This document shows positions 42,391 through 53,265 of a stretch of 64,000 bases of DNA, one piece after another. This DNA is from Streptomyces sp. 840.1. Lineage in GTDB: Bacteria > Actinomycetota > Actinomycetes > Streptomycetales > Streptomycetaceae. Within the stretch, counting starts at the first letter, position 1, and each line of letters starts with the position of its first letter. Made by a program: the position numbers and the translations under genes. Where the stretch lies: assembly GCF_003751445.1 (NCBI RefSeq), contig NZ_RJUU01000001.1:5632001-5696000 (forward strand), written 5' to 3'. Below the pieces are notes generated by a model that was not told the DNA's origin, did no database searches, and saw nothing but the letters and a program-made list of their open reading frames with translations.

Positions 42391-44847
42391 TCAGCGGTGG
42401 CCGTGATGTCCGTGGTCACCGTGGCCGTCGTGGCTTCCGTGGCCGGAAGCGCCGGCCCGCACCCGCACGATCTGCGGGTCGTGGTCGCTCGCCTGGTCGG
42501 CGAACTCCGCGTTGATGTGCACCACGTCGTAGTCGAAGCGCCGGATGCCGGGGCTCGTCAGGATGTGGTCCAGCGTCTGCGAGTTGCCCTCGTACACATA
42601 GCTGTACCGCTCGTTCTCCGGCAGCGTGTTGATGAGGGGCTTGAGCGCCTTCCCGGCGGTGAGCGCGGACATCGTCGGTGAGAACGCGAAGTCGTTCAGG
42701 TCGCCGAGGGCGATCACCCGGGCCGATTTGTCGGCCGCCAGCAGGGACTTGACGAAGGTGTTGACCTCCGCCGCCTGCTTGACCCGCTTCGTCTCCGAGC
42801 TGCGCACGGGCGGCTGGTAGCGGCCGTGCAGCGGCTGGTCACCGCCCTTGGAGGTGAAGTGGTTGCCGATGACGAACACCGGCTCGCCGCGGAAGCGGAA
42901 CTCGCCGACCAGCGGCTTGCGGCTGTCCGCCCAGGACTCGTCGAGCGGGCTGATCCGGGCGGGCGAGGCCGACAGGGTGACGCCGTGCCTGGTCTTCACG
43001 GCCTGCACCGCGGTGGTCGCGTCGCCGCCCGCGCGGTCCACGAAGGAGACCCGGGCAGGGTTGAAGAGGAACACGTTACGGATGTTGCCGCCGGGCTCGC
43101 CGCCGTCCTTGCCGTCCTGCGGAGCGACGTAGCGCCAGGAGTAGCGCGGTCCGCCCGCCGCGACGATCGCGTCGGTGAACCGCTTCAGGGTCGCCTCGGA
43201 GCCGACCGTGCCGTCGTTGACCGCACCGTTGTCGTCCTGGATCTCCTCGAGCGAGACGATGTCCGGGGAGGCCAGGCTGACCGCGACGCCCTTGGCGAGG
43301 GTGTCGAACTTGCCCTGCTCGTCGCGCGCGTCGAGGTTCTCCACGTTGTAGGTGGAGACGGCGAGTTCGTCGCGCTTCTGCTTCCTGGTGACCTCGCGCT
43401 TCAGGTGCCGGTCGGTGAGCGTGCCGAGCCGGGTGGCCTGGAGGCTGTAGCCGCCGAAGGAGTCGTAGTCCAGCACGCCGTCGGTGGTGCCGGACAGCAC
43501 GTCGCCCACGTTCGCCACCGGTACGGGCCGGGTGGCGTCGAGGGACATCACCTTGATCCGGCCGGTGTTCTGGTCCTGGTAGGAGGAGTACAGGGTGCCG
43601 CCGCGCCGGGTCGGGTTCTGCTTGGGCTCGACGGTCACCCAGACCTCGCCGTACGAGCTGGTGGCGCCGGTGACCCGGGTGTCGGCCGTCTCGACCCGGG
43701 TGCCTTCGAGGGACTCGTACAGGTCGAGCGCGTACTTCGCCGGTTCGAGGGGCAGCGCGTCGATCGAACCGCCGTCCGCCGAGGGGGCATAACCGCCGGG
43801 TACTGCCTTCGCGTTGAGCGCCACCGGCGCGGGCAGCGCGTTGCCGGAGGACAGGACGGTGGTCCTGGGGGCGGTGATCTCGGTGACGGACTGGGTGGTG
43901 GCCGAGGGGTAGTACTCGTCCACCGTGCCGCTGACCAGGACCGAGTCGCCCACCGAGACGGCCGGGGCGGCGGAGCCGGTGTAGACGAGGACGCCCTCGG
44001 AGGTGCGGGGGTCCGCGTCCGGCGAGGGGTCCTGGATCCAGAAGCCGCGCGAACCCGTGGTGCGCAGCGCCGTGACGATGCCGGGGACCCCGGTCACCGC
44101 CTTGCCGTCCAGCGGGGAGACCCGGGTGCTGCCCTGGATGTCGTGCACGCGCACGGTGCCGGGCTCGGTGGGGTTGCCCGGGTCGCCGGGGTCCTCGCCG
44201 CCGCCGGAGGTCTCACCGGCGGCGTTCACCGGGGTGGGTGCGCCGGCGGAGAGGTCGGCGGCGTTGTCGTCGGTGTCCGCGAGGGAGGCCGCGCGCGCCA
44301 CGGATGCAGTGGCGGAGGCGCCGGTCGCCGGTCCGCCGCCCTCCCGGACGACCGCGGAGCCGTAGCCCACCAGGTCCACGACCCGGGTATCCGATGCGCA
44401 GTCGGCCGCGGTCTTGCAGGTCAGCGCCGTGGTGCCGGAGACCAGCGCGACCGTGCCGCTCGCGGCGGACATGGCGACCGTGCCGGTGGCGTCGGGGGCG
44501 GGCAGGGCGACCGTGCCGCCCGTGCCCGCGGCCTGGCCCACCAGATAGCGGCCGCCGGGCGCCACGGCACCGGTGAGCGGGGACACCTGCCACTGCGAGC
44601 CGGCGGACGGCGCCCCGGGCAGGTACTGGACGCTGAACCCGGACAGGTCGTACGCGGCGGAGCCGGCGTTGGCCAGCTCGACGAAGTCGCGGGTGAGCGT
44701 CGCACCGGAGTTCCCGCCGCCGCCGTACACCTCGGAGATCACGGCGGACGAGGACGGGGCCGCGAAGGCGGCGGGCAGCGCGGTGGCCGAGAGGGTCACG
44801 GCGACCGCGCCGGCCAGCAGGACGGAACGTGGTCTGGATATGCGCAC
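42391..44847 (-). CDS. Secreted ExeM/NucH-type extracellular nuclease with lamin-tail domain
   Basis: An 818-residue exported protein. After the signal peptide comes a lamin-tail domain (VISEVYGGGGNSGATLTRDF, FVELANAG), then an OB-fold ExeM region, then an endonuclease/exonuclease/phosphatase domain from about residue 500. Catalytic patterns include VSTYNVENLD, VSLEEIQDDNG, VIGNHFTSKGGD, ALGDLNDFAFSP, QTLDHIL and ASDHDP. The C-terminal 15 residues alternate His, Gly and Asp (HGSHDGHGDHGHHGHR), a likely metal-binding tail. It probably degrades extracellular DNA for nutrients. Confidence 0.92.
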   Translation of the reverse strand: MRISRPRSVLLAGAVAVTLSATALPAAFAAPSSSAVISEVYGGGGNSGATLTRDFVELANAGSAAYDLSGFSVQYLPGAPSAGSQWQVSPLTGAVAPGGRYLVGQAAGTGGTVALPAPDATGTVAMSAASGTVALVSGTTALTCKTAADCASDTRVVDLVGYGSAVVREGGGPATGASATASVARAASLADTDDNAADLSAGAPTPVNAAGETSGGGEDPGDPGNPTEPGTVRVHDIQGSTRVSPLDGKAVTGVPGIVTALRTTGSRGFWIQDPSPDADPRTSEGVLVYTGSAAPAVSVGDSVLVSGTVDEYYPSATTQSVTEITAPRTTVLSSGNALPAPVALNAKAVPGGYAPSADGGSIDALPLEPAKYALDLYESLEGTRVETADTRVTGATSSYGEVWVTVEPKQNPTRRGGTLYSSYQDQNTGRIKVMSLDATRPVPVANVGDVLSGTTDGVLDYDSFGGYSLQATRLGTLTDRHLKREVTRKQKRDELAVSTYNVENLDARDEQGKFDTLAKGVAVSLASPDIVSLEEIQDDNGAVNDGTVGSEATLKRFTDAIVAAGGPRYSWRYVAPQDGKDGGEPGGNIRNVFLFNPARVSFVDRAGGDATTAVQAVKTRHGVTLSASPARISPLDESWADSRKPLVGEFRFRGEPVFVIGNHFTSKGGDQPLHGRYQPPVRSSETKRVKQAAEVNTFVKSLLAADKSARVIALGDLNDFAFSPTMSALTAGKALKPLINTLPENERYSYVYEGNSQTLDHILTSPGIRRFDYDVVHINAEFADQASDHDPQIVRVRAGASGHGSHDGHGDHGHHGHR

Positions 44848-45098
44848 GGAAACTGCCCCTCAGAGTGTGATGAGGGAGCACAAGCTATGCGCGTAGAACC
44901 GGCGATGACAAGGCATCAGAGGTTAATTCCAGAAATCGGTCAGCCATCCGGCCCACACCGGCCGCCGGCCGGGCTCCCGGCCCGCCGCGCCACCGGTCCG
45001 GCCGCCACTGTTCACGCCCCCGCCGGGCGCCCGTCACACCGCCGCAACGCGGGAGCAACACCCGGCAGGGGAACGGGTGTCCAGGATGCGGCAATGGT

Positions 45099-45128
45099 TT
45101 GACCGGGTTGCGCCGGTCCGGTTACGTT
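45099..45128 (+). promoter_or_regulatory. Promoter of the cysteine leader peptide
   Basis: -35 TTGACC (45099-45104), 18-bp spacer, -10 TACGTT (45123-45128). Seven bases separate the -10 from the leader ATG at 45136, so transcription should begin at or next to the start codon and give a leaderless mRNA. Confidence 0.6.
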
Positions 45129-45135
45129 GCGCGGC

Positions 45136-45216
45136 ATGCAGCGATCCGCACACCTGACGACGCGAGGTCATATCGACCTGAAGCGTGTGTGCTCCGCCGT
45201 GTGTCATCGGGTCTGA
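45136..45216 (+). CDS. Cysteine-containing leader peptide (26 aa)
   Basis: A 26-codon ORF containing TTRGHIDLKRVCSAVCH. It matches the streptomycete putative leader-peptide family with the pattern R-x-H-(V/I)-D-L-x-R-x-x-S-A-x-C near the C-terminus, found before sulfur and cysteine metabolism genes. Two Cys codons (TGC, TGT) fall in the last eight positions, where ribosome stalling on low cysteinyl-tRNA would affect downstream RNA folding. It is probably translated from a leaderless transcript. Cysteine-responsive attenuation is inferred. Confidence 0.75.
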   Translation: MQRSAHLTTRGHIDLKRVCSAVCHRV

Positions 45217-45407
45217 GAGCGTCACGCCCGCGCGACCCGGCCGCGAGGGGGCTGTCCAGCCGTCCCCTTGCCCGGCCCCGGATCCCGCAGGGTGTCTCTC
45301 CACCGCAGAGCAGTGCCGCCCGGCCCCGGGCCGGCGGCGGACTGCCCGAGCTCCGTACCGGAGCACGCACCGCGTCACCCGCTGCCATCGAGGACCTGGA
45401 AGACACT

Positions 45408-46685
45408 GTGAAGAGTCTGTCCGCACCCGGCCGTCGCCCCAGTCCGCCGCGCCGCTCCGACATACCCGCCGCACCGCCCGTCCGCCGGCTCGCGGGCACC
45501 GGCCCGGTGTTCGGCGCGATCCTCGACCACGGACCGGTGGCCCGTTCCACCGTCGCCCGGCTCACCGGCCTCTCGCCCGCCTCGGTCACCGGCCACGTCA
45601 CCTCACTGCTGGCCCGCGGACTGGTCCGGGAGAGCGCGGAGACCGCCGGACCCCGAGGGCTCGGCCGGCCGCACATCCCCGTCGAGATCGACACCGGCCG
45701 CTACCTGGTGGCCGGGGCGCACATCGCCGTCGCCCACTCGACCGTGTCGCTGATGGACCTGCGCGGCCGGATCGTGGCCGAGGACCGCCGGGCCCACCGC
45801 ACCACGGACCCGCACCGGATGTTCGCCGAACTCGCGGCCAGGCTGCCCCGGCTGACGGCCGCGCACGCGGACGGACGCACGGTGCTCGCCCTGGGCCTCG
45901 CCACCGGGCACCGGGTCGACCCCGTCGCCGGGGTGATCGTGGACCACCCGCACCTCGGCTGGCGCGATGTCCCGGCCCGCGACGTCCTCACCGCCGCGAC
46001 CGGGCTCCCGGTCCACGTGGACAGCCACTCCCGCGCACTGGCCCGCGCCGAGCAGCTGTTCGGCCAGGAGTCGACCCGTACCAGTACGGTCCTGCTCTTC
46101 GTCGGCGCGGTCGTGGACGCCGCCTTCGCCACCGAGGGTGCCATGCACCGGGGCCCGCGCTCGGGGGCGGGCAGCGTGGCGCATCTGCCGCTCGGCACCG
46201 AGGGGGCGGACGGTGACGTGGAGGGGGAGCGGGGCGGTGCCGGCGGCTGTTCCTGCGGGCGGGCCGGCTGCCTCCAGTCGGAGGTGTCGGAGCGCGCCAT
46301 GGTGCGGCGCGCGGCCGCTCAGGGGCTGGCCGTCGACTCGTTCCCGGAACTGCTGGACCGGGCGCTGAGCGGTGATCCGAGGGCGGTGGCCCTGTTCCGC
46401 CGGCGGGCGCGGCTGGTGGGGAGGGCCGCGGCGCTGCTGCTCGACATGTTCGACCCCGAGGTGCTCGTCGTCGTCGAGCCGGGGGCGGGCCGGATGCCGG
46501 AGTGTCTGGCCGAGCTGCGGGCCGAGGTGGCGAAGCGCTCGTGGGTCTGCGAGGACCCGGAGCGCACGGTGGTGCCGACCAGCTTCACCGGCACCGTCCT
46601 GGCCACGGCCGGCGGCGCGGTGGCGCTCGGCGCGCTGTACGCGGATCCGCTCGGCCCCTGGCCCGCGCTGCCCGCCGTCTCCTGA
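45408..46685 (+). CDS. ROK-family transcriptional regulator
   Basis: A 425-residue protein. A winged helix occupies residues 20-90 (GPVARSTVARLTGLSPASVTG). The ROK domain follows, with the zinc-binding pattern GGCSCGRAGCLQSE near residue 285. The sugar-kinase phosphate-binding glycine motif is poorly kept, so it is a regulator and not a kinase. GTG 45408 was chosen for the short extension before the HTH and a GGAAG site. It sits 190 bp after the cysteine leader ORF and just upstream of the monooxygenase/ABC cluster, so it may respond to a sulfur compound and not a sugar; that is inference. Confidence 0.85.
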   Translation: MKSLSAPGRRPSPPRRSDIPAAPPVRRLAGTGPVFGAILDHGPVARSTVARLTGLSPASVTGHVTSLLARGLVRESAETAGPRGLGRPHIPVEIDTGRYLVAGAHIAVAHSTVSLMDLRGRIVAEDRRAHRTTDPHRMFAELAARLPRLTAAHADGRTVLALGLATGHRVDPVAGVIVDHPHLGWRDVPARDVLTAATGLPVHVDSHSRALARAEQLFGQESTRTSTVLLFVGAVVDAAFATEGAMHRGPRSGAGSVAHLPLGTEGADGDVEGERGGAGGCSCGRAGCLQSEVSERAMVRRAAAQGLAVDSFPELLDRALSGDPRAVALFRRRARLVGRAAALLLDMFDPEVLVVVEPGAGRMPECLAELRAEVAKRSWVCEDPERTVVPTSFTGTVLATAGGAVALGALYADPLGPWPALPAVS

Positions 46686-46741
46686 GGCCGCCGATTCCGG
46701 CGGGCCCTTCCGGATCCGACTTAATTCAGGCAGTTGCATTG

Positions 46742-46771
46742 TTGACCGGGTACGAATGCGGACGGGATGAT
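46742..46771 (+). promoter_or_regulatory. Promoter resembling the leader-peptide promoter
   Basis: -35 TTGACC (46742-46747), 18-bp spacer, -10 GATGAT (46766-46771). It shares TTGACCGGGT and the 18-bp spacing with the promoter at 45099. The ATG at 46778 is only six bases beyond the -10, so the transcript is predicted to be leaderless. Confidence 0.5.
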
Positions 46772-46777
46772 GGATTC

Positions 46778-46900
46778 ATGACCAGCAGGCAGCGGAATTC
46801 ACGGAACGCGTCCTCGGTGACGCGCGTCTTCCGTCTGTCCTCGACGGCGTTCGCCGCCGTCCGGCTCCTTTGTCGCCGCCCCTGTCCGGGCCTCCGGTAG
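46778..46900 (+). CDS. Candidate second leader peptide (40 aa)
   Basis: A 40-codon ORF with ten Arg, many Ser, and two cysteines close to the end (LLCRRPCPGLR). It lacks the HIDL core of the first leader. Its position right at a predicted transcription start, the Cys pair near the C-terminus and the hairpin downstream resemble cysteine attenuators. It precedes the flavin reductase, ABC importer and monooxygenase genes by 165 bp. It may be a chance ORF; confidence is moderate to low. Confidence 0.4.
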   Translation: MTSRQRNSRNASSVTRVFRLSSTAFAAVRLLCRRPCPGLR

Positions 46901-47065
46901 ACCTGCCGCGTTCGTCGCGACTTCTCCGTTTCGTTTTCCCCGCCGGCCCCCGTCCGGCATTTCCGTCATGGTCGCGGCGCCCCGCCGCGCATTCCATGCA
47001 TGCGCGTACTCGCCATTCCCGCGACCTTTCTCGCCCCTTTCCGACCAGTCACCCCGGGAGAGACG

Positions 47066-47632
47066 TTGACCGTCACCGTGTCCTCATTCACCGCACCGAT
47101 CGCATCGGACGCTGCGGCCGGATCGCCCGCGCCCGGCATCGACCCGGGCCGCTTCAGGCAGGCGTTCCGCCGCTATCCCGCCGGAGTCGTCGTCGTCACC
47201 GCCGACGCGGGCCGGGGCCCCATAGGTTTCACCGCGACCTCGCTCAGCTCGCTCTCGCTGGACCCGCCGCTGGTGTCGTTCGGGATCGGCACCACCACCT
47301 CGTCCTGGCCGCACATCGAACGGGCCCGCACGGCCGTCGTGAACTTCCTCGGCGCCGAACAGCGCGCACTGGCCACCACCTTCGCCACCAGCGGCATCGA
47401 CCGCTTCGCCGCCCCCACCCGCTGGCGGCGGCTGCCGGAGGGGGAGCCGGTGCTCGACGGGGTGGCCGGGTGGCTGCGGCTGGAGATCGAACAGCTCGTC
47501 CCGGCCGGTGACCACCGCGTCGTCATCGCCCGGGTGGTGGACGCCCGGCTCCACGAGGGACACAGCCCGCTCCTCTTCCACGACGGCGGCTACCGCACCC
47601 TCCGGGCGCCCGCGCCCCCCACCGGCCACTGA
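47066..47632 (+). CDS. Flavin reductase family protein
   Basis: A 188-residue FMN-binding reductase of the HpaC/SsuE-like flavin reductase-like domain family. It shows FRRYPAGVVVVTAD, GFTATSLSSLSLDPPLVSFGI and the later FATSGIDRFA. TTG 47066 is chosen for GGGAG five bases upstream; an ATG at 47000 lacks a site. It would supply reduced FMN to the LLM monooxygenase encoded at 50387, giving a two-component oxygenase. It is the first structural gene of the cluster. Confidence 0.85.
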   Translation: MTVTVSSFTAPIASDAAAGSPAPGIDPGRFRQAFRRYPAGVVVVTADAGRGPIGFTATSLSSLSLDPPLVSFGIGTTTSSWPHIERARTAVVNFLGAEQRALATTFATSGIDRFAAPTRWRRLPEGEPVLDGVAGWLRLEIEQLVPAGDHRVVIARVVDARLHEGHSPLLFHDGGYRTLRAPAPPTGH

Positions 47633-47645
47633 CCAGGGACTCGCC

Positions 47646-48713
47646 ATGCCGTTCAACGACACACACCGGACCGTCGGCCGCAGATCATTTCTCGCACTCA
47701 CCGGTGCGACGGCCATCGGCGCGCTCGCCGCCTGCTCGCCACAGGCCGAAACGGTGGCGAGCGCCGAACCCACCGGAAAGCTTCCCTCGGGAGCGCCACC
47801 GGCCGGCACGAAACTCTCCATAGCCGTGCGCACCACCCAACTCCAGCTGGGGGCGGCCGGGCTGGAGAAGGAGCTGCCGTTCACCGTTTCCGACTGGCCC
47901 AATCTGAACGCGGGCCCCGATATCATCCAGGGATTCCGCGCCCATTCCATCGATCTCGCGGTCAATGCCGGAATTCCGCCGATCCAGGCCCAGGCCATCG
48001 GCGTCGGCGCGAAGATCGTCGCGGTGCAGGTGCGCAACAGCCCCAGCTACGTCTTCGCGACCGCGCCCGGATCGGACATCAGGAGCGTGACCGATTTCCG
48101 CGGCCGGAAGATCGGCTTCTCGCAGGGCCAGGCCCAGGGCGTCGTCGTACTGCGCGCGCTGAAGCGGGCCGGCCTCGCCAACAAGGACGTCGAACTGGTC
48201 GCCCTGCCCAGCACCCAGTTCCTCACCGCCCTGCAGTCCGGGCAGGTCGACGTGGCACCACTGGGCGAGCCGACCCTCACCAAGTACCTGAGCCAGTACG
48301 GCAAGGACGGCGCGCGCGGGATCAGGACCGACGTCGTGGACCTGCTCACGGTCCTCTGGGCGCCCGACGAGGTGCTGAACGACCGGGCCAAGGCCGCCGC
48401 CGTCCGGTCCTTCGTCCCGCTGTGGGCCCGCGGAGTGGCCTGGGCCTGGGAGAACAGCGACACCTGGATCGACACCTACTACGTCAAGGACCAGGGCGTC
48501 TCCCGGGCGGACGGCAAGCGCATCGTCGCCTCCCTGCGGCAACCGCGGTTCCCGGTGAGCTGGGACAAGGCCATCGCGTGGGAACAGGAGACCGCCGACC
48601 TGATGGCCGAGGGCGGGTTCGTGCCGAAGCAGGACGTCGCCGGGCTGTTCGACCGCCGCTTCGAGGGGCTGGCGGCCGAGGCCGTACCGGCCCGCTACCG
48701 GGAGACGTCATGA
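47646..48713 (+). CDS. ABC transporter substrate-binding lipoprotein (sulfonate/nitrate type)
   Basis: A 355-residue extracytoplasmic binding protein. The signal has a twin-arginine pattern (GRRSFLAL) and lipobox GALAAC, so it is a Tat-exported lipoprotein. The mature part resembles SsuA/TauA-type NMT1 proteins: FRAHSIDLAVNAGIPPIQAQAIG and FRGRKIGFSQGQAQGVVVLRAL. It delivers an oxyanionic substrate, most likely an alkanesulfonate or sulfone, to the permease. The stop overlaps the permease ATG. Confidence 0.87.
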   Translation: MPFNDTHRTVGRRSFLALTGATAIGALAACSPQAETVASAEPTGKLPSGAPPAGTKLSIAVRTTQLQLGAAGLEKELPFTVSDWPNLNAGPDIIQGFRAHSIDLAVNAGIPPIQAQAIGVGAKIVAVQVRNSPSYVFATAPGSDIRSVTDFRGRKIGFSQGQAQGVVVLRALKRAGLANKDVELVALPSTQFLTALQSGQVDVAPLGEPTLTKYLSQYGKDGARGIRTDVVDLLTVLWAPDEVLNDRAKAAAVRSFVPLWARGVAWAWENSDTWIDTYYVKDQGVSRADGKRIVASLRQPRFPVSWDKAIAWEQETADLMAEGGFVPKQDVAGLFDRRFEGLAAEAVPARYRETS

Positions 48714-49618
48714 CCGGACTGCTCACGAACGCCCGCACCGCGGCCCCGGTGAAGCCGGCCGTCGCGCCCGGGAAGGCGGCGAAGCGGCCGGAGCCGGGCA
48801 CGGACGCGACGGCTCCCCGCCCCGCCACGCCCCGGACCACCCGCAGACGGCTGGGTCCCGGCCGGGCCGTGCCCTTCGGCCGACTGATCGGGCCGGTCCT
48901 GGTCATCGCGCTGTGGTGGTCCGCCTCCGCCGTCGGCTACCTCGACCCCCGGATCCTGTCCGGGCCCGGCACGGTGCTCTCCACCGCGTCGGCCCTCGTC
49001 GCCGACGGCCGGCTCCAGGACAACGTCCTCATCTCACTGCAACGCGCCGGCCTCGGACTGCTCTTCGGGGTGGCGGCGGGGGTCGTGCTCGCCGTCGCGG
49101 CCGGGCTGAGCCGCACCGGCGAGTACCTGCTGGACGGCCCGCTGCAGATCAAGCGCGCCATCCCGTCCCTCGCCATGCTCCCGCTGCTGATCCTCTGGCT
49201 CGGCATCGGTGAACAGATGAAGGTCACGGTGATCGCACTCGGCGTCGCGGTGAGCATGTACATCAACACCTACGCCTCGCTGACCGGCATCGACAGCAGG
49301 TACGTCGAGCTGGCCGAGGGACTCGACCTGAGCCGGCCGCAGTTCGTCCGCAAGGTCGTCGTACCCGGCTCACTGCCCGGTTTCTTCGTCGGGCTGCGCC
49401 TCGGCGTGACCGCGTCCTGGCTGGGGCTGATCGTCGTCGAGCAGATCAACGCCACCAGCGGCATCGGCTACATGATGTTCCAGGCCCAGCAGTACGCGCA
49501 GTCCGACGTGATCATCGTGGGCCTGGTGGCCTACGGGGTCTTCGGCTTCGCGTCGGACGCGGCGGTACGCGCCGTCGAGAGGAGGGTCCTGTCATGGCGA
49601 CGCACTCTGGCGGGCTGA
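48710..49618 (+). CDS. ABC transporter permease (SsuC/TauC-like)
   Basis: A 302-residue permease. After a 60-residue cytoplasmic Ala/Pro/Arg-rich N-terminus there are about six membrane helices. The ATPase-docking EAA loop is in YVELAEGLDLSRPQFVRKVVVPGSLPGFF, cited here as YVELAEGLDLS and VVVPGSLPGFF. It starts in an ATGA overlap with the binding-protein gene and its end overlaps the ATPase gene by 25 bases. Confidence 0.9.
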   Translation: MTGLLTNARTAAPVKPAVAPGKAAKRPEPGTDATAPRPATPRTTRRRLGPGRAVPFGRLIGPVLVIALWWSASAVGYLDPRILSGPGTVLSTASALVADGRLQDNVLISLQRAGLGLLFGVAAGVVLAVAAGLSRTGEYLLDGPLQIKRAIPSLAMLPLLILWLGIGEQMKVTVIALGVAVSMYINTYASLTGIDSRYVELAEGLDLSRPQFVRKVVVPGSLPGFFVGLRLGVTASWLGLIVVEQINATSGIGYMMFQAQQYAQSDVIIVGLVAYGVFGFASDAAVRAVERRVLSWRRTLAG

Positions 49619-50403
49619 CCCGCACCCGTGCCGCCGCCGGTGGGGCCGTGGACGTCCCCGCGATACGCACCCGGCGCCTGGTCCGCAGGTTCGGTGACCG
49701 GGACGTCCTCAAGGAGCTCGATCTCACCGTCGCCCCGGGGGAGTTCACCGCACTGCTCGGACGCAGCGGCTCGGGCAAGTCCACCCTGCTGCGGGCCGTC
49801 GCCCGGCTCGACCACACCGTCGAGGGCTCGGGCGAACTCACCGTCCCCGACCGGGTCTCGCTCTCCTTCCAGGACTCCCGGCTGCTGCCCTGGCTGCGGG
49901 TCATCGACAACGTCGTCCTCGGGCTGCGCGGCCCGGGGGCCCGGGAACGCGGCCTCACCGCACTGGCCGAGGTCGGTCTGGAGGGGCGCGGCCGGTCCTG
50001 GCCGCACGAGCTGTCCGGCGGCGAGCAGCAGCGTGCCGCACTGGCCCGCGCCCTGGTCCGAGAGCCCGAACTCCTCCTCGCGGACGAGCCGTTCGGCGCC
50101 CTGGACGCCCTGACCCGGATCAGGATGCACGACCTGCTGCGCGAGCTCTACGAGCGCCACCGCCCCGCGGTGCTGCTGGTCACCCATGACGTCGACGAGG
50201 CCGTCGAGCTGGCCGACCGGGTGCTCGTCCTGGAGGACGGCCGGATCTCCGTCGACCTCACCGTCGACCTGCCCACCCCGCGGTCCCGGCGCGACCCCCG
50301 GTTCCAGGAGTACCGCGACACCCTGCTCACCGCGCTCGGCGTAGCCCAGCCCCAGCCCCAGGCCCGTACCGAACCGAAGGAACCCCATGGCCCGCACGCC
50401 TGA
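49594..50403 (+). CDS. ABC transporter ATP-binding protein (SsuB/TauB-like)
   Basis: A 269-residue ATPase with Walker A GRSGSGKSTLL, signature LSGGEQQRAALARAL and Walker B LLLADEPFGALDALT, then the H-loop in LVTHDVDEA. The compact Q-loop SFQDSRLLPWL is typical of sulfonate/nitrate importers. It completes the importer, and its 3' end overlaps the monooxygenase start. Confidence 0.93.
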   Translation: MATHSGGLTRTRAAAGGAVDVPAIRTRRLVRRFGDRDVLKELDLTVAPGEFTALLGRSGSGKSTLLRAVARLDHTVEGSGELTVPDRVSLSFQDSRLLPWLRVIDNVVLGLRGPGARERGLTALAEVGLEGRGRSWPHELSGGEQQRAALARALVREPELLLADEPFGALDALTRIRMHDLLRELYERHRPAVLLVTHDVDEAVELADRVLVLEDGRISVDLTVDLPTPRSRRDPRFQEYRDTLLTALGVAQPQPQARTEPKEPHGPHA

Positions 50404-51772
50404 CCGCAAGCAGCTGCACCTCAACGCCTTCCTCATGTCCACCGGCCACCACGAGGCGTCCTGGCGGCTCCCCGGGAGTCCGGCCGAGGCCGACTCGGAC
50501 ATCGAGCACTACAAGAACCTGGCCCGGATCGCGGAGCGCGGCAGACTGGACTCGCTGTTCCTCGCCGACAGTCCGGTCCTGATGGGCGACCCCGGACGGC
50601 GCCCGTCCGCCAAGCTGGAGCCCACCGTCCTGCTGACCGCGCTCGCCGGCGCCACCAGCCGCATCGGGCTCATCGCCACCGCGTCGACCAGCTACAACGA
50701 GCCGTACAACCTGGCCCGCCGGTTCGCCTCGCTGGACCATGTCTCGGGCGGCCGGGCCGGCTGGAACATCGTCACGACCGCGGGCGCCGACGCGGCCCGC
50801 AACTTCGGCCTCGACGACACCCCCCTGCACCACGACCGCTACCGCCGCGCCGGTGAGTTCGTCGAGGTGTCCACCAAGCTCTGGGACAGCTGGGCCGACG
50901 ACGCGGTGATTGCCGACAAGGAGCGCGGCGTGCACGCGCTGGCGGAACGGGTGCGGAAGATCGGGCACAGCGGCGAGTTCTTCCGGGTCGACGGCCCGCT
51001 GAACGTCCAACGCCCGCCGCAGGGATATCCGTTGCTCGTCCAGGCGGGCTCCAGTGAGGACGGCAAGGACTTCGCCGCCCGGTACGCGGAGGCGGTGTTC
51101 ACCGCTCAGCAGACCCTGGAGGAGGGCATCGCGTTCTACAAGGACGTGAAGCAGCGGGCCGAGGCCATCGGCCGCAACCCGGACGGCATCAAGATCCTCC
51201 CCGGCATCGTGCCCGTCATCGGTGACACCGAGGCCGAGGCGCTGGCGCTGGACTCCGAGCTGGAGAACCTCATCGTCCCGGAGTACGCCAAACGGCAGCT
51301 GGCCCAGCGCCTCGGGATCGTGGCCGACGAGCTGGACCTGGACGCGGAGCTGCCGGAGGACATTCCCACCGAGGACGAGATCGAGGGCGCCAAGAGCCGC
51401 TACACGCTCGTCGTGGAGCTCGCCAGGCGCGAGCGCCTGACCGTACGTCAGCTCATCGGCCGGCTCGGCGGCGGACGCGGCCACCGCACCTTCGCCGGCA
51501 CGGCCGAGCAGGTCGCGGACACCATCGAGCACTGGTACGACAGCGGGGCCGCCGACGGCTTCAACATCATGCCCGCCGTCCTCCCCTCCGGCCTGGAGGT
51601 GTTCGTCGACCGGGTGGTGCCGATCCTCCAGGAGCGGGGACTGTTCCGTACCGAGTACACCGCGAGTACCCTGCGCGGGCACTACGGGCTGCCCCGGCCC
51701 GCCAACCGGCTGTTCGAGACCGTCGACAGCGCCGAGGGCCACTTCGGCATCGCGCTGGCGCAGGCCGGGTGA
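50387..51772 (+). CDS. LLM-class FMN-dependent monooxygenase (NtaA/SnaA/DszA type)
   Basis: A 461-residue TIM-barrel monooxygenase. It opens QLHLNAFLMSTGHHEASWRLP and shows the family stretches LDSLFLADSPVL, GRAGWNIVTTAGADAARNFG and SSEDGKDFAARYAEAVFTAQQ, the latter split across residues 225-245. These enzymes use reduced flavin from a separate reductase to oxidise sulfur or amine compounds. With the reductase and sulfonate-type importer here, release of sulfite from an organosulfur compound is likely. The exact substrate is unknown. Confidence 0.9.
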   Translation: MARTPDRKQLHLNAFLMSTGHHEASWRLPGSPAEADSDIEHYKNLARIAERGRLDSLFLADSPVLMGDPGRRPSAKLEPTVLLTALAGATSRIGLIATASTSYNEPYNLARRFASLDHVSGGRAGWNIVTTAGADAARNFGLDDTPLHHDRYRRAGEFVEVSTKLWDSWADDAVIADKERGVHALAERVRKIGHSGEFFRVDGPLNVQRPPQGYPLLVQAGSSEDGKDFAARYAEAVFTAQQTLEEGIAFYKDVKQRAEAIGRNPDGIKILPGIVPVIGDTEAEALALDSELENLIVPEYAKRQLAQRLGIVADELDLDAELPEDIPTEDEIEGAKSRYTLVVELARRERLTVRQLIGRLGGGRGHRTFAGTAEQVADTIEHWYDSGAADGFNIMPAVLPSGLEVFVDRVVPILQERGLFRTEYTASTLRGHYGLPRPANRLFETVDSAEGHFGIALAQAG

Positions 51773-53211: not shown

Positions 53212-53225
53212 GCTGGCTCTCCCTC

Positions 53226-53265
53226 GGTACGTGGGTACGTGGGTACGTGGGTACGTCGTACGTGG
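53226..53265. repeat. 8-bp tandem repeat GGTACGTG
   Basis: Four adjacent units of GGTACGTG (the fourth ends in C) followed by a shifted fifth GTACGTGG. It lies 15-54 bp upstream of the chloroperoxidase-like gene start, in its promoter/leader. GTAC and TACGTA-like cores are self-complementary, so it may be either slippage-prone DNA or clustered operators. Confidence 0.8.

Follow-up and report, generated by a model that had tools for sequence, protein, structure and literature searches.

How could a bacterium tie both a regulator and the operon beside it to one nutrient signal? This question is raised by a locus of Streptomyces sp. 840.1, whose genome comprises 8.8 Mb across 4 contigs. The stretch analysed here (the window) covers 64,000 nucleotides, positions 5,632,001 to 5,696,000 of contig NZ_RJUU01000001.1. 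From 45.1 to 51.8 kb, the + strand carries a short open reading frame (ORF) ending in cysteines (leader 1), the gene of a ROK-family regulator, a second such ORF (leader 2), and genes for a flavin reductase, an SsuA/SsuC/SsuB-like importer, and an NtaA/DmoA-family monooxygenase. The original prediction, made from the letters of the window, held that cysteine supply might gate regulator and effector genes in series. In the best explanation, to which we assign a probability of about 0.72 as a whole, the locus serves organosulfur scavenging and is guarded by two cysteine checkpoints in series.

Two leaders and their promoters

Leader 1, MQRSAHLTTRGHIDLKRVCSAVCHRV, has 26 codons plus a stop (45136..45216, + strand; ATG at 45136, stop at 45214-45216) and starts 7 nt after the -10 element of promoter 1 (45099..45128, +), which consists of TTGACC at 45099-45104, an 18-bp spacer, and TACGTT at 45123-45128. 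Leader 2, MTSRQRNSRNASSVTRVFRLSSTAFAAVRLLCRRPCPGLR, has 40 codons plus a stop (46778..46900, +; ATG at 46778, stop at 46898-46900) and starts 6 nt after the -10 element of promoter 2 (46742..46771, +), built of TTGACC at 46742-46747, an 18-bp spacer, and GATGAT at 46766-46771. Promoter 2 was the sole promoter found by a consensus scan of 44900-47100 (shuffles: mean 0.0, standard deviation 0.2). Promoter 1 was not flagged by that scan; its TTGACC and a TACGTT-like -10 are visible by eye in the rows of the 27 relatives bearing leader 1.

Both window strands were also scanned for TTGAC, nAnnnT 16-19 nt after the -35 hexamer, a distance of 5-8 nt, and an ATG or GTG opening an ORF of 6-60 codons whose last ten include two or more Cys. 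Leaders 1 and 2 were the only matches in the 64 kb, and the mean was 0 in 30 mononucleotide shuffles, each searched on one strand. Both mini-ORFs and their promoters are thereby confirmed at the positions originally predicted. Each ATG lies 6-7 nt past the -10 and 36-37 nt past the first base of TTGACC. In Streptomyces lividans, the -10 lies 5-7 nt from the start in 88.7% of the leaderless cases (PMC8079986). Since the geometry of the window leaders matches these starts, the spacing points to leaderless transcription, and each transcript would start at the A of its leader ORF.

The two promoters had further been described as look-alikes. Both do contain TTGACCGGGT. However, this is largely the usual streptomycete -35, given as nTGACC (PMC8079986), and the promoters differ upstream of TTGACCGGGT. 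Promoter 2 carries a TTAATTCA box, and none was seen by eye at promoter 1. Relatives outside the window's clade do not have such likeness, and a shared promoter signature acting as a joint operator was therefore dropped.

Constraint on the first leader

Relatives were taken from the 30 of 392 genus genomes that bear the conserved box of promoter 2 (see below), from 37 named ROK loci (many from these same genomes; the close ones belong to Streptomyces and Actinacidiphila), and from a class-wide sample. In the last, 32 of 345 genomes had a ROK relative at E <=1e-70, and loci were obtained for 30 of the 32.

Leader 1 stands upstream of the ROK gene in 27 of the 30 box-bearing genomes. The other three are G116, where the contig ends, and G193 and G354, where ROK is only partly matched. 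It is also found in 34 of the 37 named loci (the remaining three are cut at contig ends) and in 28 of the 30 class-wide loci, where G560 is cut by a contig end and G173 is a true miss. As had been predicted, its pattern is that of HIDL-type leaders: it is similar over the HIDL core to NCBIfam NF042936 (7.2e-08, 31.9 bits, cut-off 45) and NF042934 (6.1e-05, 22.5 bits, cut-off 27). Neither match is over the curated cut-off, and the relation is one of resembling the HIDL-type cysteine leaders without formal membership. An H-[IV]-D-L core followed by a Cys near the end is present in the window and, in the same or a closely varied form, in 28 of the 30 class-wide loci.

Across 24 of the 27 copies, the proportions of nonsynonymous (pN) and synonymous (pS) differences are 0.058 and 0.193, compared with pN 0.103 and 0.102 and pS 0.043 and 0.085 in the shifted frames. 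By these counts, leader 1 is selected as a peptide.

Cysteine codons of the second leader

Leader 2 matches no NCBIfam or Pfam family, and its profile found 2 unnamed proteins at E <=0.01 in a protein database. Its ATG lies 35-36 nt from the start of the -35 in 30/30 box-bearing genomes. The ORF has 18, 27, 35, 37, 40, 42, or 43 codons, mostly with an MTSRQR-like beginning, and the last ten codons hold at least one Cys in all 30 genomes and at least two in 28. Conservation of these codons among relatives, on which the original prediction had staked the second ORF, was thus found throughout. Cysteine accounts for 76/300 of the last-ten codons, versus 7/300 and 1/300 in the shifted frames and 187 of 53,192 codons in the cluster genes of the same genomes (168 aligned segments). 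The TGT:TGC ratio is 67:9 in the leader endings versus 33:154 in the cluster genes. These rows are related, so that the counts are not independent events and Fisher values overstate the certainty.

A stronger argument than the test values is that lengths and endings changed while the cysteines stayed, which argues that leader 2 is a real ORF. Endings include CPGxR, SCCRP, PCPCCRA, RSCCPCRAC, and GKGC. Shifted stops retain Cys, as in the 18-codon MTIRQRIPRYVPCPCCRA and a 27-codon form ending RRSCCPCRAC, and G023 and G259 lack the CPG cysteine and keep CC. In the named loci, 34 of 37 have Cys in the last ten codons of leader 2, and the other three have it further in. At seven loci of Actinacidiphila and S. 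acidipaludis, leader 2 stops at 40-60 codons, with Cys at codons 31-41 in six of them (five being CC at 33-34); in L175 of this set the cysteines occupy codons 18-19 and 27-28. In some Actinacidiphila the cluster precedes a later stop.

Selection counts were made on 16 of the 30 copies, namely the 40-codon ones with MSS starts left out. Over the full length pN is 0.31 and pS 0.32, and over the first eight codons 0.14 and 0.33. Leader 2 thus seems to keep little beyond its start and its mostly-TGT cysteines. A role as a small functional protein was rejected because the peptide body is not conserved. As leader 1 is selected as a peptide and leader 2 is not, the two probably sense in different ways.

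A sharper form of this difference is that leader 1 is an arrest peptide whose sequence (RGHxDLKRVCSAxC) the ribosome reads, perhaps in response to a signal different from Cys-tRNA, and that leader 2 is a plain codon counter. The low pN of leader 1 in its own frame, the excess of pN over pS in its shifted frames, the near-equal values of leader 2, and the class-wide HIDL core all favour such a division of labour. Nevertheless, both leaders end in Cys and HIDL leaders precede sulfur genes, so the idea is a serious contender that we judge somewhat less probable than its opposite.

Distribution of the pair

Both leaders occur together in 27 of the 30 box-bearing genomes. Class-wide, a second Cys leader follows ROK at 20 of 30 loci, window included (3 of the window's clade and 17 others), and the distance from the -35 to the start is 36-37 nt in all 20. 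Ten of the 17 others, of the same genus, carry MSCRTFCC (twice), MSPFVSCRTHCC (twice), four similar peptides, or MSS[AS]RVQVPLTKCRVVDLMRVARTRCC (twice). The remaining seven belong to another family. Five of these ORFs start with GTG and close with RCRRC or CCRRC, one starts with ATG and closes with ACCPCCCC, and in G475 the cysteines lie within a longer ORF. Beyond the window's clade, the place of leader 2 is taken at these loci by peptides of unrelated sequence that end in Cys, MSCRTFCC among them. Relatives of the importer lie downstream in 12/12 distant Cys-leader loci fetched at length.

Judged by this comparison, the serial arrangement appears conserved and not peculiar to the source genome. 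Two cysteine leaders in series, the core of the original prediction, are strongly supported in this way; the proposed response to cysteine is a separate matter. The odds are about even that this is an old two-checkpoint cysteine circuit, present in at least two families of the class, in which a peptide-specific leader gates ROK, a codon-only leader gates the operon, and leader 2 has repeatedly given way to unrelated Cys-ended ORFs. The replacement types would be the 40-codon MTSRQR form, the 8-12-codon M...SCRTxCC form, GTG-started ...RCRRC, and ...CCPCCCC, with promoter spacing and Cys ending kept and the ROK box retained in much of the set.

As a separate observation, L115 and L116 (G708 and G445) keep a short Cys-less ORF, MNRRDxSPRKGxAGPLQGVGR, just after ROK and close to where leader 2 would stand, before a gene that by eye resembles a TauD-type dioxygenase.

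The regulator and its candidate operator

The conserved box ACTTAATTCA-N5-TTGCATTGTTGACC (46719..46747, +) lies upstream of the -35 of promoter 2, overlaps it, and is a candidate operator of the ROK protein. The pattern TTAATTCAN5TTGCATTGTTGACC, with <=3 mismatches, occurs in the 30 of 392 genus genomes in one copy each, and the reversed control in 0; a wider form with <=2 mismatches has a single copy in the source genome. A close flavin reductase was found in 23 of 295 genus genomes, 22 of which have the box; G221 (55% identity) does not. By eye, TTAATTCA-N9-A(A/T)TGTTGAC stands beside ROK genes of 51-57% identity in both families, e.g., G376 and G685, and the GTG-leader loci retain TTTCA and AATATTGAC at a different spacing. 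This recurrence of the TTAATTCA box beside distant ROK genes marks the ROK protein as the likely reader, with the copy at promoter 2 as its most probable site of action.

Corynebacterium glutamicum has two ROK proteins, CysR and SsuR, with a site arm TGAAtnnAAt; CysR raises SsuR, and SsuR raises the sulfonate genes (PMC2580772). The window's regulator shares with the CysR/SsuR type a ROK domain with a helix-turn-helix (HTH) beside sulfonate genes. Compared by eye with the inverted repeat ATTnnATTCA ... TGAATnnAAT, the 5' arm of the box agrees well, at 7 of 8 set bases, and the 3' arm poorly, at 4 of 8; there may be a likeness to the CysR/SsuR half-site.

It could then be asked whether only the ROK regulator matters and the leaders are relics or fine tuning without cysteine dependence. 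CysR and SsuR govern Corynebacterium sulfur genes in an account whose relevant sections mention no leader peptides (PMC2580772). Against this, retained Cys-ended leaders of changing sequence are hard to explain without a function, and we consider such a regulator-only scheme improbable.

G193 (L048) and G354 (L085) match ROK only in part and gave no leader 1 but retain leader 2 with its promoter. Leader 2 may therefore persist where the regulator is lost.

Gaps, folding, and the read-out step

The untranslated gap between leader 1 and ROK (45217..45407, +) has C 0.43 and G 0.34. The gap between leader 2 and the flavin reductase gene (46901..47065, +) is C-rich and G-poor (C 0.44, G 0.24), a candidate Rho loading zone. 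Among equal window segments, 0.65% have a C-G excess as large as that of 46901-47060, compared with 15% for the leader 1 gap, which is not special. After leader 2, C exceeds G in all 30 genomes (mean 0.41 vs 0.25).

Mutually exclusive hairpins had been expected in both gaps. Folding, which took at most the first 160 nt of the leader 2 gap and the last 200 nt of the leader 1 gap, gave mean z values of -1.04 (30 genomes, leader 2) and -0.25 (27 genomes, leader 1). Strong single values occur after leader 2 in G170 (-5.1), G299 (-3.6), G322 (-3.2), and G158 (-3.1), and after leader 1 in G179 (-3.8). The leader-plus-gap transcripts of the window have z values of -0.90 and -1.85. No intrinsic terminator was found in 44900-47100, and an Rfam search of 44800-47200 was empty at E <=1. 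With 0 terminators and ordinary gap folding, the expected hairpins found no support, and classical terminator/antiterminator attenuation was set aside as unsupported. The C-rich gap after leader 2 and the absence of a terminator in the region make Rho-dependent or translational attenuation likelier. The gap fits Rho loading on a ribosome-free stretch after leader 2, although this is no proof.

Translational attenuation would proceed as in mycobacteria: the start region of the next gene is masked by the leader RNA until a Cys-stalled ribosome exposes it, with no termination of transcription involved. It is reported for mycobacterial Cys leaders (PMC9031893, PMC13236596), and the lack of a terminator in 44900-47100 agrees with it. 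However, gap lengths, taken up to extrapolated gene starts, differ greatly between relatives (100-348 nt after leader 2, 91-320 nt after leader 1), and the consensus fold of 22 of 30 sequences shows no pairing between leader end and ribosome site. We regard it as less likely than not.

Leader 2 itself contains a hairpin (46806..46825, +), in which 46806-46812 pairs with 46819-46825, the outermost pair being unformed in the window. The leader was aligned in 22 of the 30 genomes (A2, eight divergent ones dropped) and in 27 (A3, the three 18-codon ones dropped). For the hairpin, 82.0% of cells are paired, 23 cells are changed on both sides, and covariation is 0.270, each value being reached by 0 of 500 shuffles; slid versions are at most 47.6% paired. 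It is also visible in the divergent leaders of G299, G328, and G385, and its 3' arm is absent in the three 18-codon leaders. The covarying hairpin may be a pause or timing element.

A long-range helix of columns 11-15/114-118 would span from the leader start to the last Cys codon. It is 86.7% paired, and 2 of 500 shuffles reach its covariation, but it is only suggestive, as some changed cells possibly lie in rows with misaligned ends. The helix of columns 11-18/50-57 was no better than shuffles and was discarded; its register is perhaps off by two, as the version slid by -2 is 65.7% paired. A hairpin just past the stop of compact leaders was seen by eye in 8 genomes, in a view covering 22/30 and 8/10 rows.

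A covarying hairpin also raises the thought that what is conserved in leader 2 is an RNA element or promoter-proximal sequence, with an incidental reading frame; the first codons of leader 2 are conserved, its peptide body is not, and one shifted frame is slightly more so. This is very unlikely, however: the Cys codons are concentrated in one frame (76, 7, 1), Cys stays near the ORF end despite changed stops and lengths, and distant loci bear unrelated Cys-ended ORFs.

Proposed mechanism and its weighing

In the favoured two-checkpoint scheme, the leader of the regulator transcript would be the conserved HIDL peptide, and that of the operon transcript the 40-codon ORF with its drifting body and mostly-TGT Cys cluster. 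When charged Cys-tRNA is scarce, ribosomes would stall at the leader Cys codons. On the first transcript, the stall would permit the ROK regulator to be made; on the second, it would open the way for polymerase or ribosomes to the genes of the flavin reductase, importer, and monooxygenase. The TTAATTCA box of promoter 2 would be the target of the ROK protein, and the operon would require both the regulator and a stalled leader, i.e., a coherent feed-forward gate driven by one signal. At leader 2, the stalled ribosome would most likely shield the C-rich, G-poor stretch from Rho or block a pairing that hides the start; switching between terminator hairpins is judged less likely than either.

Several points weigh against this scheme. 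At ten of the 30 class-wide loci, no clear second Cys leader is evident. The properly placed ORF of G669 contains no Cys, and in G630 and G525 the Cys codons are scattered through the ORFs. The short ORF of G708 and G445 likewise has no Cys, and it begins only 28 nt past the -35, which is too early for such a promoter type. No second leader was seen after ROK in G552, G408, G614, G496, and G173. Importer genes also lie downstream in G708, G445, G614, and G496. G193 and G354 retain leader 2 with no leader 1 found. By pN/pS, leader 2 has no coding signature over its full length: one shifted frame is slightly more conserved (pN 0.289, pS 0.375) and the other has 0.31 and 0.32. The double-change pairs and pair types of its hairpin are not above shuffles (354 and 349 of 500), and its Cys counts come from related rows. 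Gap folding is ordinary on average, and with no intrinsic terminator in the region the read-out step is unproven.

If the scheme holds, a regulator and its operon, each leader-guarded by different means, would make the scavenging of a scarce element depend twice on one starvation signal. The natural series of replaced leaders allows testing of what a cysteine leader needs, and leader 2 points to short genes overlooked by protein libraries.

Neighbouring genes and other HIDL-type leaders

The predicted context of a ROK gene and reductase, importer, and monooxygenase genes is borne out by Pfam and NCBIfam matches over 45408-51772, all on the + strand. The ROK-family transcription regulator with HTH (45408..46685) matches Pfam ROK (5.3e-28) and MarR_2 (3.2e-06). 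The flavin reductase gene (47066..47632), with a TTG start, matches Flavin_Reduct (3.2e-39). It is followed by an SsuA-like substrate-binding protein (47646..48713; TIGR01728, 4e-34), an SsuC-like permease (48710..49618; NF008470, 1.9e-55), and an SsuB-like ATPase (49594..50403; NF008420, 4.7e-76), all three under cut-off, and by the NtaA/DmoA-family monooxygenase, dependent on flavin mononucleotide (50387..51772; TIGR03860, 1.1e-165), over cut-off. Elsewhere in the window, short direct repeats of about gtacgtgg (53225-53262) lie upstream of a minus-strand gene that by eye is alpha/beta hydrolase-like.

In the source genome, NF042934 has 12 matches at E up to 1, seven over cut-off, and leader 1 ranks eleventh (E 0.00304); 6 of 14 control genomes also give matches at E up to 1, never over cut-off. 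There are ten further leaders (L141-L150). The seven downstream ORFs checked encode a pyridoxal phosphate (PLP) enzyme, by eye a cysteine synthase, a nitrite/sulfite reductase, a rhodanese, a flavin reductase, an ATP-binding cassette permease, a dicarboxylate symporter, and one protein without a Pfam match. L149 (MPPVLLLYGRVHVDLARCASARCPDA) stands before a second flavin reductase gene. Two HIDL-type matches, C3:307366-307404 (-) and C3:307916-307960 (+), lie about 550 bp apart on opposite strands, possibly as a divergent leader pair; the peptide at the latter ends without Cys.

Comparison with known systems

In mycobacteria, poly-Cys leaderless ORFs are reported to be cysteine-responsive attenuators (Canestrari 2020 as described in PMC9031893 and PMC9094748), and the Fig 7 legend of Shell et al. 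2015 places Cys-rich leaderless ORFs before cysA2, Rv0485/Msmeg_0932, and nirA/Msmeg_4527 (PMC4633059). The leaders described here are likewise leaderless mini-ORFs (by predicted start) with C-terminal Cys codons before sulfur genes. With its start spacing in 30/30 genomes and its Cys near the end, leader 2 would count among such attenuators, and by analogy the pair may work as they do. Unlike the mycobacterial cases, for which the accounts cited name one leader per locus, regulator and neighbouring operon each have a leader here, and the sequence of leader 2 is distinct and includes a covarying hairpin. Leader 1 is similar over the HIDL core to NF042936 (Ms4527A Cys-rich leader) and NF042934 (putative leader peptide, cis_reg_atten), and leader 2 matches neither.

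CysR and SsuR of C. glutamicum are alike in being ROK regulators of sulfur and sulfonate genes, and TGAAtnnAAt, inverted, resembles the ACTTAATTCA arm; the likeness concerns sites and gene context (PMC2580772). In that account, 3 bp separate the CysR sites of activated promoters from the -35 downstream, whereas the box here runs into the -35. In S. lividans, leaderless leader ORFs are likewise found; Table 4 of PMC8079986 lists eight leaders for Ala, Leu, Ile, Thr, Trp, and Met, with no Cys class and no regulator/operon pair in that table. Its metL is classed there as methionine-dependent; given the ending CMCRRMCAF, a cysteine leader would be an equally good reading.

In the open-licence literature searched, no description of a double cysteine leader or of leader 2 was found, nor a paper joining Rv0485 with ROK. 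We take Rv0485 to be a ROK/NagC-type regulator; if so, the half formed by leader 1 and ROK has a mycobacterial precedent and is not new in kind, and the novelty lies in leader 2 and in the combination of the two. Loci with a single cysteine leader are known already, and the new aspect of this locus is that a regulator and its target operon are each guarded by one.

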